From an uncultured Porphyromonas sp. (lineage in GTDB: Bacteria; Bacteroidota; Bacteroidia; Bacteroidales; Porphyromonadaceae): DNA of 64,000 nt. The notes under the pieces are model-generated. The model was not told the origin of the DNA, made no database searches, and saw only the letters and a list, made by a program, of their open reading frames with translations. Position numbers and translations under genes: made by a program. The stretch lies in the NCBI GenBank assembly GCA_934364985.1, contig CAKRMU010000002.1, positions 174,463 to 238,462 of the forward strand. Reading direction: 5' to 3'. Positions within the stretch are counted from its first letter, which is position 1; each line of letters starts with the position of its first letter. Of the stretch, positions 3,579 through 60,850 are shown piece by piece.

Positions 3579-4210
3579 AAATAGTATCCCGGTGCACTAT
3601 GTGCTACCTCATGCACTCGCATCCGTCCCCTACCAATTTTGATACGGTTAAAGTAAACTTACGCACAAAAATACCTAAATATTGTGACACTTCCCAAAAG
3701 GAAGGTCCACTATCATCCTCCATCAGATACCCCAATACACTTGGACGAATCACATATCATCCGCCCTATTTCGCACAACCAATAGAAATAATAATACCCA
3801 CAACATGGTCACAGCATTCACTTTATGACCATGGATAGAGTACCATCACAATGCATTTCTGCCCCCATTCTTCAGCCCGTGGCAGCACACCTCCAATCCT
3901 TTTACCTGCACATCCTCAAAACGGATACCCTATATTCGCCGAGACGAATACCAGGTATTCGTGTAAACGGATACCCTATATTCGTCCGAGCTAATACCAG
4001 GTATTCGCTCCACCAATTTTTCCAGGCGCCATTAAAACATCCGCCACCCTTGAGGGCAGAAATACGATACTAAAAAATAGGGATGCCAATAGCAAAAATC
4101 CTTTATATCTAAAGTCCCCAAGAGGGATGGTAGAATGCCCGGCAGAGTGACCAACAATATTACAATGGTGTTGCAGATATTAAAACTAATAGGTAGATTT
4201 GCAGGGGAAT
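3579..4210. other. 632-bp intergenic region between the rnf operon and tRNA-Ala
   Basis: No open reading frame here looks real: the short frames lack family resemblance and one runs through repeats. The region holds a four-unit 23-bp-period palindromic array at 3924-4007, listed separately. Beyond that I see only AT-rich spacer that must contain the divergent promoters. Confidence 0.6.
3924..4007. repeat. Four-unit 23-bp-period palindromic array (array A)
   Basis: Four 15-bp cores start at 3924, 3947, 3970 and 3993, exactly 23 bp apart. Cores 1 and 3 are identical (GATACCCTATATTCG) and cores 2 and 4 are identical (AATACCAGGTATTCG). The 8-bp spacers are CCGAGACG, TGTAAACG and TCCGAGCT. A short A-tract and CG precede the first core. 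The array lies between divergent transcription units. Confidence 0.85.
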
Positions 4211-4284
4211 GGGGAATTAGCTCATCTGGCTAGAGCGCGACAATGGCATTGTCGAGGCGACCGGTTCGAGTCCGGTATTCTCCA
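4211..4284 (+). tRNA. tRNA-Ala (anticodon GGC)
   Basis: A complete cloverleaf can be drawn. The acceptor stem is GGGGAAT with ATTCTCC (4277-4283, one G-U pair), the D stem GCTC/GAGC, the anticodon stem CGACA/TGTCG around the loop ATGGCAT (anticodon GGC at 4245-4247), a 5-nt variable loop, and the T arm ACCGG-TTCGAGT-CCGGT. The discriminator base is A and CCA is not encoded. Anticodon GGC reads GCC/GCU alanine codons. Confidence 0.95.
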
Positions 4285-4412
4285 CAATCAGAATTTTATC
4301 TCTAAGAACACTAGTTTAAGATCATTGATTTTCCAGAAGGCTTCGAACTCGTGAGAGCTCGGAGCCATCGTTTTATATCACCTCCATTATCACCTTGATC
4401 CCTAATATTTAG

Positions 4413-4420
4413 TATCTTTG
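4413..4420 (+). promoter_or_regulatory. Bacteroidota -7 box upstream of lptB
   Basis: TATCTTTG matches the TAnnTTTG -7 element of Bacteroidota. It lies 23 bp before the lptB ATG. The nearest upstream TTG (4395-4397) is spaced closer than usual, so the -33 element is uncertain. Confidence 0.5.
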
Positions 4421-4442
4421 TGGGTACTCAATAGCAATATAT

Positions 4443-58926: not shown

Positions 58927-58936
58927 TGATATGTGT

Positions 58937-59410
58937 CTATTTATCTAATTCGTTAATAATCTGTAGCAACTGCTGAGCGTGTGTACTCGTCTTGATGTCT
59001 TTCCCCTTTATGACGGCACAGACAATACCATCCTCGTCTATCACAAAGGTACTCCGCTCTGTGCCATAGTACTTTCTGCCGTACATACTTTTCTCAATCC
59101 AAACACCGAAAGCCTGATTAAGCTCTGTCGAAGTGTCGGCAATAAGGGGGAAAGGCAAGCTATATTTCTCCTTGAATCTTTGGTGGCTCTTGGCTCCGTC
59201 TTTGCTCACTCCGATGACTTGATACCCAGCATCCTGTAGCTCAGATATGCCGTCACGAAGACTACAAGCTTCGGCCGTACACCCACTCGTATTATCCTTT
59301 GGGTAAAAGTAAAGTAGGACTTTGGTGCCTTTTAAGCTCTCTCTGGTGATCTCGCGACCGACTTCATCTGTGCCAAGAACTTCGGGTATCTTGTCTCCTA
59401 TATTTATCAT
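58937..59410 (-). CDS. bcp: Thioredoxin-dependent thiol peroxidase (BCP/PrxQ)
   Basis: Reduces hydrogen peroxide and alkyl hydroperoxides with thioredoxin as donor. The 157-residue protein has the peroxidatic Cys in NTSGCTAEACSLRDG with the resolving Cys five residues later, the VIGVSKDGAKSHQRF segment, PLIADTSTELNQAFGVW, and the late RSTFVIDEDGIV. It starts within 4 nt of the end of the upstream dehydrogenase gene and is 10 bp before recA. Confidence 0.95.
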   Translation of the reverse strand: MINIGDKIPEVLGTDEVGREITRESLKGTKVLLYFYPKDNTSGCTAEACSLRDGISELQDAGYQVIGVSKDGAKSHQRFKEKYSLPFPLIADTSTELNQAFGVWIEKSMYGRKYYGTERSTFVIDEDGIVCAVIKGKDIKTSTHAQQLLQIINELDK

Positions 59411-60603
59411 AATTCTATGTCAGTATCAATACATTCGTGCCAAGGGAGTCCCTGTTTTGCCACTTCCTCGAGGAAGGGATCTGGGTCAAACTCTTCCACA
59501 TTAAAGACACCCTTGCCTGCCCACAACCCTTTGAAAAACATAATAGCTCCTGTTGTCGCTGGCACGCCTGTGGTATAGCTAACACCCTGAGCTCCTGTCT
59601 CTTTATACGCCGCTTCGTGGCTACAATTATTGTAAATATAATAAGTCTTTTCCTTACCATCTTTGATGCCTCGGATACGACAACCGATAGACGTTTGCCC
59701 TGTGTAGTTCTCCCCAAGCTCCTTAGGGTCTGGGAGGACTGCCTTGAGGAACTGTATTGGGACTATCTCTTTGCCCTCATACATTATCGGCTCTATGCTT
59801 GCCATACCGATATTCTGGATCACCCTCAGGTGTGTGAGATACTCCTCTCCGAAGGTCATCCAGAAGCGAGCCCGTTTAAGGGTCGGGAAGTTTTTAACTA
59901 AGCTCTCCAACTCTTCATGGTACAGTAGATAGCTTTCGCGAGGCCCCACTTCGGGATAGGTAAGTGGCTGATGTATCTCAAGCGGATTGGTCTCTACCCA
60001 CTTCCCATCCTGATAATACTTGCCTCTTTGGGTCACCTCACGGATATTGATCTCGGGGTTAAAGTTCGTTGCGAATGCTTTGTGATGGTCGCCAGCGTTA
60101 CAATCTACGATATCCAAATAGTGCATCTCATCAAAATGATGCTTCGCGGCATAGGCTGTAAATACACTGGTTACACCTGGGTCAAAACCGCATCCGAGGA
60201 TAGCCGTTAAGCCGGCTTCCTTAAAGCGGTCTTGGTAAGCCCACTGCCAACTATATTGATACTTAGCCTCATCTTTAGGCTCATAATTTGCCGTATCGAG
60301 GTAGTTAACGCCACACTCCAGACAGGCATCCATTATCGTCAGATCCTGATAAGGAAGTGCTACATTGATCACCAATTCGGGCTTAAAGCTCTTAAAAAGA
60401 GCTACCAATTCGTCCACATTATCGGCATCCACCTGAGCGGTCTTAATCTTTGCTTCTTTGATCTTACCTGCAATAGCATCGCACTTTGCTTTGTTACGGC
60501 TTGCCAGCATAATATCGGTAAAAATGTCGCTATTCATGGCTACCTTTTTGGCGACCACTGTCCCGACACCTCCGGCTCCGATAATCAATACACGTCCTTT
60601 CAT
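59407..60603 (-). CDS. Carboxynorspermidine dehydrogenase-type saccharopine dehydrogenase family protein
   Basis: A 398-residue NAD(P)-dependent dehydrogenase. The Rossmann motif LIIGAGGVGTVVAKKVA opens the protein; the family segments VINVALPYQDLTIMDACLECGVNYLDTANYEP (near 80-111), LGCGFDPGVTSVFTAYA and the late GAQGVSYTTGVPATTGA match the carboxynorspermidine dehydrogenase (CANSDH) group used for spermidine synthesis in Bacteroidota, rather than lysine-pathway saccharopine dehydrogenase. The decarboxylase partner is not in this window. A -7 box at 60657-60664 lies 54 bp before the start. It is co-directional with bcp and recA. Confidence 0.85.
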   Translation of the reverse strand: MKGRVLIIGAGGVGTVVAKKVAMNSDIFTDIMLASRNKAKCDAIAGKIKEAKIKTAQVDADNVDELVALFKSFKPELVINVALPYQDLTIMDACLECGVNYLDTANYEPKDEAKYQYSWQWAYQDRFKEAGLTAILGCGFDPGVTSVFTAYAAKHHFDEMHYLDIVDCNAGDHHKAFATNFNPEINIREVTQRGKYYQDGKWVETNPLEIHQPLTYPEVGPRESYLLYHEELESLVKNFPTLKRARFWMTFGEEYLTHLRVIQNIGMASIEPIMYEGKEIVPIQFLKAVLPDPKELGENYTGQTSIGCRIRGIKDGKEKTYYIYNNCSHEAAYKETGAQGVSYTTGVPATTGAIMFFKGLWAGKGVFNVEEFDPDPFLEEVAKQGLPWHECIDTDIEL

Positions 60604-60766
60604 CTCGAATAATATCTCAAATTAATTAATGACAAATACTTTATCCACTCCCTTTTCAAAGGTACTTATTTTTAACGAAAGAGGGGTCATAATAAGGAGG
60701 TGATTTACTCCGAGTGACGTTTTGTACGTACATCAAACGAATGGTCCTCAGAGATGCTCTATTGGG
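60604..60766. other. Upstream half of the CANSDH to lamin-tail gap
   Basis: Contains the -7 box at 60657-60664 and AT-rich DNA before array I. No reading frame or RNA fold stood out. Confidence 0.5.
60657..60664 (-). promoter_or_regulatory. Bacteroidota -7 box upstream of the CANSDH-bcp-recA cluster
   Basis: TACCTTTG on the minus strand matches the -7 consensus. The sequence upstream on that strand is A/T-rich with no clear TTG at 20 bp. Confidence 0.5.
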
Positions 60767-60850
60767 AATACCCATGATACGCAAAAACTAATACCCGGTA
60801 TTCTCTTAGACGAATCCAGGGTATTTGTCGAGGCGTATTCAGGGTATCTG
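60767..60850. repeat. Four-unit 23-bp-period palindromic array (array I)
   Basis: Cores start at 60767, 60790, 60813 and 60836 (AATACCCATGATACG, AATACCCGGTATTCT, AATCCAGGGTATTTG, TATTCAGGGTATCTG). Spacers are CAAAAACT, CTTAGACG and TCGAGGCG. The first core is weak, and the A-tract lies between cores 1 and 2. It lies between tandem minus-strand genes; nothing else is visible in the 60665-60942 stretch. Confidence 0.78.

Follow-up and report, generated by a model that had tools for sequence, protein, structure and literature searches.

The closest published relative of the elements described here is BrickBuilt, a 23-nucleotide (nt) minisatellite of Porphyromonas gingivalis that resides in a miniature inverted-repeat transposable element (MITE) with a leader, a tail and terminal inverted repeats (TIRs) and that, in the accessible passages of its description, comprises 1 to 22.8 units with a conserved spacer and is presented as direct repeats (Klein et al. 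2015, PMC4596501). The same source cites Nelson et al. 2003 for 22- and 23-nt tandem repeats in P. gingivalis W83, noting that no locations were given for them, and its accessible passages do not describe palindromes, unit number, genus-wide replacement or spacing for these repeats. Here we analyse a 64,000-bp stretch of DNA from an uncultured Porphyromonas sp. (contig CAKRMU010000002.1, positions 174,463 to 238,462; hereafter the window), which carries nine short intergenic arrays of palindromic units at a fixed 23-bp step, and compare it with related genomes, designated by G numbers; among 295 genomes of its order, G280 is the nearest (89%), and the terms genus and family refer below to the taxa that include G280.

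With BrickBuilt the window arrays share the genus (in the wide sense), an intergenic location and the 23-nt period, and the BrickBuilt consensus, as given in the accessible passages, contains a 12-bp palindrome, TCTCATATGAGA, close to array family F1 of G303 and F2 of G301. The statement of the initial annotation that no published family fits was thus partly wrong, the 23-nt brick with its core TCTCATATGAGA being on record (PMC4596501). In contrast to BrickBuilt as described there, the arrays analysed here have mostly three to four units, variable spacers and, in the window, no common flanks; no leader, tail or TIRs of the BrickBuilt type are common to the window arrays, shared ends being found only in some arrays of G280, and the brick pattern, from which the window unit differs, occurs in two of 38 family genomes (G314 and G316). 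Published four-unit palindromic arrays were not recognised for Porphyromonas in the accessible literature, whose scope leaves out most subscription journals. The W83 repeats may, at a guess from the passages available, include the 22-bp TTTCCACnnGTGGAAA arrays described below, and the arrays as a whole are a real, genus-wide class that had been partly glimpsed earlier in P. gingivalis.

Several better-known systems resemble these arrays in part. Repetitive extragenic palindromes (REP) and bacterial interspersed mosaic elements (BIME), which form hairpins and are associated with a Y1 transposase (RAYT), resemble the present arrays in that many palindromes are dispersed between genes and grouped into small composite arrays; the units here, by contrast, avoid perfect pairing (in G298), and eight of 12 genus genomes have no Y1_Tnp match. 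A RAYT/REP system was rejected as a candidate, PF01797 being found in 4/12 genus genomes and not in G299, G300, G301, G303, G305 or G307, all of which have arrays and are of unstated completeness. Lambda-type operators and Lrp octamer sites are 15-17-bp dyads at a 22-24-bp pitch, bound cooperatively and accommodating four dimers, but they stand at few promoters rather than at sites spaced by ~10 kb. The matS, SlmA, parS and Noc sites are dispersed palindromes read by a dimer in a chromosome-scale role; unlike the present arrays, they are single conserved palindromes and not four-unit, species-specific arrays.

All nine arrays reported in the initial annotation are present in the window, between positions 3922 and 60850, and the 23-bp step without slippage claimed for them holds for every step between units (28/28). 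With four units scored in register, the arrays reach 62-91 bits, and two Markov-shuffled windows contain nothing comparable (best scores 2.7 and 4.1); Tandem Repeats Finder alone detects six of the nine. Eight arrays have four units and one has five, with three single units elsewhere, and at a looser threshold seven have four and two have five. Column statistics over 37 window units yield a symmetric profile with the 17-bp consensus CGaATACCnGGTATtCG and spacers tending to YYnnRR. The unit had been given as a 15-bp core with an 8-bp spacer; taking the unit as the 17-bp palindrome leaves 6 bp for the spacer, and CGAGRC, said to be frequent in the spacers, occurs in 5/28 eight-base spacers, for which "often" was generous. 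An A-rich left flank hints at a single orientation, but leave-one-out scoring finds no common polarity, favouring the plus strand in 3/9 arrays when no flanking bases are included, in 3/9 with 8 and in 5/9 with 20. Replication-strand polarity was rejected, there being no shared orientation in the window and 29/55 among G298 neighbours. All nine arrays lie outside open reading frames (ORFs) of at least 100 aa; two 82-aa ORFs overlap arrays and are regarded as chance. A partial match to the unit is also found at 34290-34333.

Copies of the window family were counted within the 64-kb window, and the other genus genomes were sampled as fetched DNA, partial for each genome. A profile built from the window arrays (R1) has matches at E 0.01 in two genomes among the 12 of the genus, namely G298 and G302 (weakly, best E 4e-6), and in the same two among 38 family genomes at E 1e-5; the matched loci consist of a 16-bp palindrome, CTAATACCGGTATTAG, with a 6-bp spacer and a period of 22. 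The expectation that a scan would find the arrays beyond the window was thus borne out in part, for a close 22-bp variant in G298 and G302 and not for the exact 23-bp-step family, which was not found in the 38 family genomes. A second profile, R2, for which 22 of the 66 arrays in G298 were used, finds nothing in the window at E 0.01, and the two profiles together indicate that the window family and the G298/G302 family are related but distinct. R2 gives at least 154 two-strand matches in G298 and at least 151 in G302 (150 candidates scored per genome), a lower bound that corresponds to ~75 arrays each if both strands match.

Palindromic arrays are found in the sampled DNA of nine of the 12 genus genomes (G298, G302, G280, G299, G300, G301, G303, G305 and G307, with G303 the weakest); no clear arrays were seen in the DNA sampled from G304 (83 kb) and G306 (60 kb), and the 2.8 kb sampled from G308 has one place matched by R2. 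The usual build is a palindrome with a short spacer, often 16-17 + 6 bp, at a period of 21-23. Identical 6-mers are over-represented at a distance of exactly 22 bp in three genomes (G298, G280 and G302), the corresponding distance for the window and for G307 being 23 bp. Palindromes differ between species and several families occur together in one genome, examples being CTTAGTTGCAACTAAG in G280, CTAAGTTCsGAACTTAG in G307, TTCTGTCnnnnGACAGAA in G299 and a period-21 family, ATCAAGnCTTGAT, in G300 and G305. Across 165 arrays in 19 genome-family sets, unit numbers are distributed as one unit in 2, two in 7, three in 48, four in 103 and five in 5, with none above five; three to four units are thus found in 151/165, and some of the three-unit counts are probably four, as weak outer units fall below threshold. 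Steps are exactly 22 bp in 105/105 cases in 400 kb of G298, in 39/39 in G280 and in 24/24 in G302. The proposal that geometry is what is selected is supported, in that the words change between species while mostly three to four units at 21-23 bp persist; geometry, unit number, intergenic placement and species-specific sequence can all be read directly from the DNA.

In G314, which we take to be P. gingivalis ATCC 33277, 202 matches to the BrickBuilt brick are accompanied, in the 40 kb sampled, by one four-unit array of TTTCCACnnGTGGAAA at a 22-bp period; the TTTCCACnnGTGGAAA pattern occurs in this genome at 10 places with 24 unit pairs and at most three consecutive pairs, equal to four units. 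A second period-22 candidate in the same genome (L200:11173) has an AT-rich word around TATATATAAATCG. Outside the genus, a generic palindrome-plus-period detector, whose absences mean little as it gives 25 period-22 hits in G298 against 66 by profile, returned only isolated or AT-rich candidates from 19 genomes sampled at 20 kb each (in G222, G275, G185 and G168), among which L136:3987 (G222) and L128:10506 and 12905 (G275) are possible period 21-23 arrays. A loose three-unit pattern run against GTDB r220 contigs found 15 stretches, mostly unrelated tandem repeats, of which only L011, from a Bacteroidales metagenome-assembled genome (MAG), resembles the unit; by eye, L001, L005, L007, L012, L015 and others, from unrelated bacteria, are short 22-23-bp-step arrays resembling the ends of IS21-type elements. 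In the sampled loci of G304 and G305, 28 windows per genome also show a strong periodicity of 33 bp, which may stem from CRISPR or a different tandem repeat.

How the units are read can be approached through half-site statistics, which were computed for G298 only, on 48 four-unit arrays (192 units) after the 18 three-unit arrays had been dropped. At half-site position 7 an alternative T occurs 93 times, yet on both sides of a unit in 0/192, even though such a unit would be a perfect palindrome. Perfect palindromes number 26/192 against 37.8 ± 4.6 expected from independent halves, which gives no support to the idea of selection for perfect palindromy as such. An A at half-site position 5 occurs 27 times, in 22 cases on the left half of unit 2 or the right half of unit 3 (0/20,000 permutations), so that the special halves of units 2 and 3 face outward and the whole array has a central dyad, which is what a finite four-dimer complex would need. 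These half-site rules and the array dyad are direct observations in G298. The inner spacer bases of the same arrays vary freely while the units are kept, and in the one orthologous array pair of G298 and G302, 9/64 unit positions differ versus 11/18 spacer positions. The G298 half-site patterns argue for protein dimers and against hairpins, and together with the unit counts they make repeated binding of a dimer, as first suggested, the best reading; judged from sequence, a protein complex of dimers very probably binds the arrays. A hairpin reading was examined and is disfavoured, the perfect palindromes of G298 being too few and the covariation term unfavourable: RNAalifold gives a weak fold for 22 G298 arrays, with a covariation term of +0.19 and 4/16 pairs changed on both sides in some sequence.

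In 779,254 bp of G298, on 11 contig stretches, 55 distances separate neighbours among the 66 arrays; the shortest is 5,565 bp and the mean 11.1 kb, and the coefficient of variation (CV) of these distances is 0.447 versus 0.81 ± 0.09 for random intergenic gaps of at least 130 bp (0/2000 draws as low). Distances below 4 kb are absent, against about 13 expected from random gap draws. Of these arrays, 58/66 avoid ORFs of at least 100 aa, seven share 2-48 bp with the end of such an ORF, and one falls within the initial portion of a called ORF. With both families of G280 pooled, 12 distances have a CV of 0.37 (P 0.0005 versus the gap null), and with F1 alone eight distances have a CV of 0.49 (P 0.06-0.09); the pooled set is the more even, as if F1 and F2 shared one lattice. 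Repulsion is therefore observed in G298 and, with few distances, in G280, and G299 agrees weakly, with two distances below 5 kb versus 6.3 expected (P 0.02); G303 and G307 have too few distances for the test.

We therefore tentatively propose, as a reading that may well prove wrong, that the arrays are four-dimer docking platforms for a sequence-specific DNA-binding protein acting at the scale of the chromosome. One palindrome would be the site of one protein dimer, and the 21-23-bp pitch would align adjacent dimers along almost the same helical face, giving a single complex with its twofold axis at the array centre. Such complexes would act chromosome-wide, as anchors or as domain or supercoil boundaries about every 10 kb, and not on the adjacent gene; the species-specific palindromes would reflect replaced protein specificity, or paralogues taking over, with the arrays following. 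The protein, its oligomer and the chromosome-scale role we infer, the last of these being a possibility to which we give somewhat less than an even chance.

A number of observations weigh against this proposal. Regular spacing is not significant versus the gap null in the window (P 0.23), in G302 (P 0.40) and in G300 (P 0.13), and in G299 the CV is 0.78 (P 0.27). One G280 array pair is 2.5 kb apart; in G298, a weakly scoring candidate (C7:2449, 16.3) that would lie 4.8 kb from the next array was excluded, and 10 intervals of 15-29 kb contain one to six free gaps. In G307, 20/27 steps are 23 bp and 7/27 are 22 bp, and five arrays then count five units. Motifs at a fixed distance in about a fifth of the outward G298 flanks (+1 to +40) are unexplained by the binding model: a CTGATAAyCAG-like motif near +21 on 26/127 array sides and a TCTGA-like start at +1 on 17/127, both found with loose expressions that have no chance control. 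The binding protein was not found. Finally, some arrays sit inside repeats: two F1 arrays of G280 (C1:58080 and C7:22401) are part of a repeated element whose ends form GGGGTTACGCATTAG inverted repeats, three of the four F2 copies of that genome align over ~230 bp in common, and the P. gingivalis arrays of G314 lie inside a ~386-bp repeat.

Among candidate binders, an Lrp/AsnC octamer was rejected: PF01037 occurs as one copy in 9/12 genomes and was not found in G300 or G305 (completeness not given), each of which has two array families. HTH_3 domains of the XRE/CI type are present in 12/12 genomes, with a single match in G305 for its two array families.

The main rival explanation holds that small mobile elements have left the arrays behind as worn remnants, the core being the site of a multi-dimer transposase or its partner, the repulsion being target immunity and the families being different elements. 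We regard this as rather unlikely, but it is the alternative to be taken most seriously. It would account for the arrays inside repeats, both the TIR-bearing element and the F2 copies of G280 and the P. gingivalis repeat, where an 801-bp query around the G314 array finds one identical copy elsewhere and nine partial ones. It would also fit the species-specific families, several per genome, and the residence of BrickBuilt bricks in a MITE, as the accessible passages report (PMC4596501). Flank-flank similarities between arrays (35 in G298, 34 in G280, five in G302, four in G307 and four in G299) point the same way, although several of the G298 hits are short tandem repeats and nearly all those of G299 come from one compound site. 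On the other hand, the nine window arrays have no flank homology (0 flank-flank matches), the free spacers and kept units of G298 are not what neutral decay of old copies would give, and a Y1 transposase was not found in six of the nine array-bearing genus genomes, other transposase families not having been searched. No similar DNA to array 3, the one of the nine searched, was found among phage and plasmid records. Taken together, the arrays seem able to travel but, once inserted, to be retained.

An improbable alternative is that one or several global transcription regulators use the arrays as operators to control the adjacent genes, in keeping with the nearly always intergenic location and with the resemblance of 17-bp sites with 6-bp spacers to lambda-type operators. 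Gene arrangement is ignored in G298, however, where arrays occupy 10/20 convergent, 15/41 divergent and 34/89 tandem gaps (P 0.57), convergent gaps being used at least as often as divergent ones. Across 517 reciprocal-best pairs, the ends of orthologous genes show no conservation of arrays (14/42 versus 27/78, P 0.63; 18/47 versus 28/88, P 0.28, when genome pairs of the same family are counted as well), a test weakened by incomplete array lists for the less sampled genomes; this lack of conserved adjacency argues against gene-specific operators. An apparent retention of arrays at orthologous sites with replaced sequence (rplM, pfk and others) was withdrawn, as there was no excess over the same 517 pairs.

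The arrays could also be site-specific recombination sites, with inverted arms and a 6-bp core, that shuffle blocks of genes, which we consider very unlikely. Synteny with G298 or G299 is broken at 5/5 window array gaps with both direct neighbours mapped versus 3/28 array-free neighbour pairs, a comparison (array gaps at 3922, 26432, 34143 and 53528) that is not matched for gap length; array gaps are long inter-operon gaps, where breaks are expected, and the relatives are partly sampled. Weakest of all are RNA or cruciform structures such as terminators or processing sites, which the self-pairing of each strand within a palindrome would allow but which we disfavour to the point of near dismissal, given the avoidance of perfect palindromes in G298, where the complementary pair T7-A10 never occurs, the weak RNAalifold fold and the absence of any Rfam match above gathering score at a window array, tRNA and a cobalamin riboswitch being the only matches in the window.

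The window arrays have no assigned strand and lie mostly among housekeeping genes, as judged by family matches. Array 1 (3922..4007, four 17-bp palindromic units at the 23-bp period, score 91.2) stands between an rseC-like gene (3168-3578, minus strand) and tRNA-Ala/lptB; array 2 (8307..8392, four units, 65.5) between proS (-) and rplM (+); and array 3 (17571..17656, four units, 87.0) between a tsaE-like gene (-) and the cobalamin riboswitch. This riboswitch (17715-17938, plus strand, 70 bits) adjoins the array upstream of DUF5074 and TonB-type genes. Array 4 (26432..26517, four units, 80.4) separates an M20 peptidase gene (-) from an alpha-2-macroglobulin-like gene (-), and array 5 (34120..34228), with five units of which the best four score 71.2, separates rrf (-) from pfk (+). 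Array 6 (41803..41888, 78.3), whose four units are followed by a weaker fifth to ~41911, lies between an AIR-synthase-like gene (-) and a BPL_N gene (+), array 7 (53528..53613, four units, 80.1) between a GHL10 gene (+) and an Na/H exchanger gene (+), and array 8 (57513..57598, four units, 62.4) in the convergent gap of an aminotransferase gene (+) and recA (-). Array 9 (60765..60850, four units, 62.3) is flanked by a saccharopine-dehydrogenase-like gene (-) and a lamin-tail-domain gene (-). A further match to R1 at 11748..11829 (no strand, 16.4 bits, E 0.0007), in the gap between tsf and an Mg-chelatase-like gene, is probably a decayed array and, as such, probably a sign of array loss in the window. 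The window is part of a Porphyromonas chromosome. Its prolyl-tRNA synthetase shares 88% identity with those of P. levii and a Porphyromonas MAG, 89% with its best matches and 79% with that of P. gingivalis.

In its boldest form, which we advance as a speculation with the balance of likelihood against it, the docking-platform proposal would mean that this genus marks its chromosome every ~10 kb with four-dimer anchors placed by distance and not by neighbouring genes, the word being replaced between species together with its protein, in a fast-evolving organising system without known counterpart. If the arrays do organise the chromosome, they would constitute a sequence-defined, evenly spaced boundary system, with a bearing on what fixes the ~10-kb supercoil domains. 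If they are instead mobile, they would represent a class of elements that have a core for four dimers and a strongly controlled spacing, found in the genus of a major oral pathogen, a class of which only fragments had been described before in the passages accessible to us. The replacement of the word at constant geometry is a natural experiment on the co-evolution of a DNA-binding protein with its many sites.

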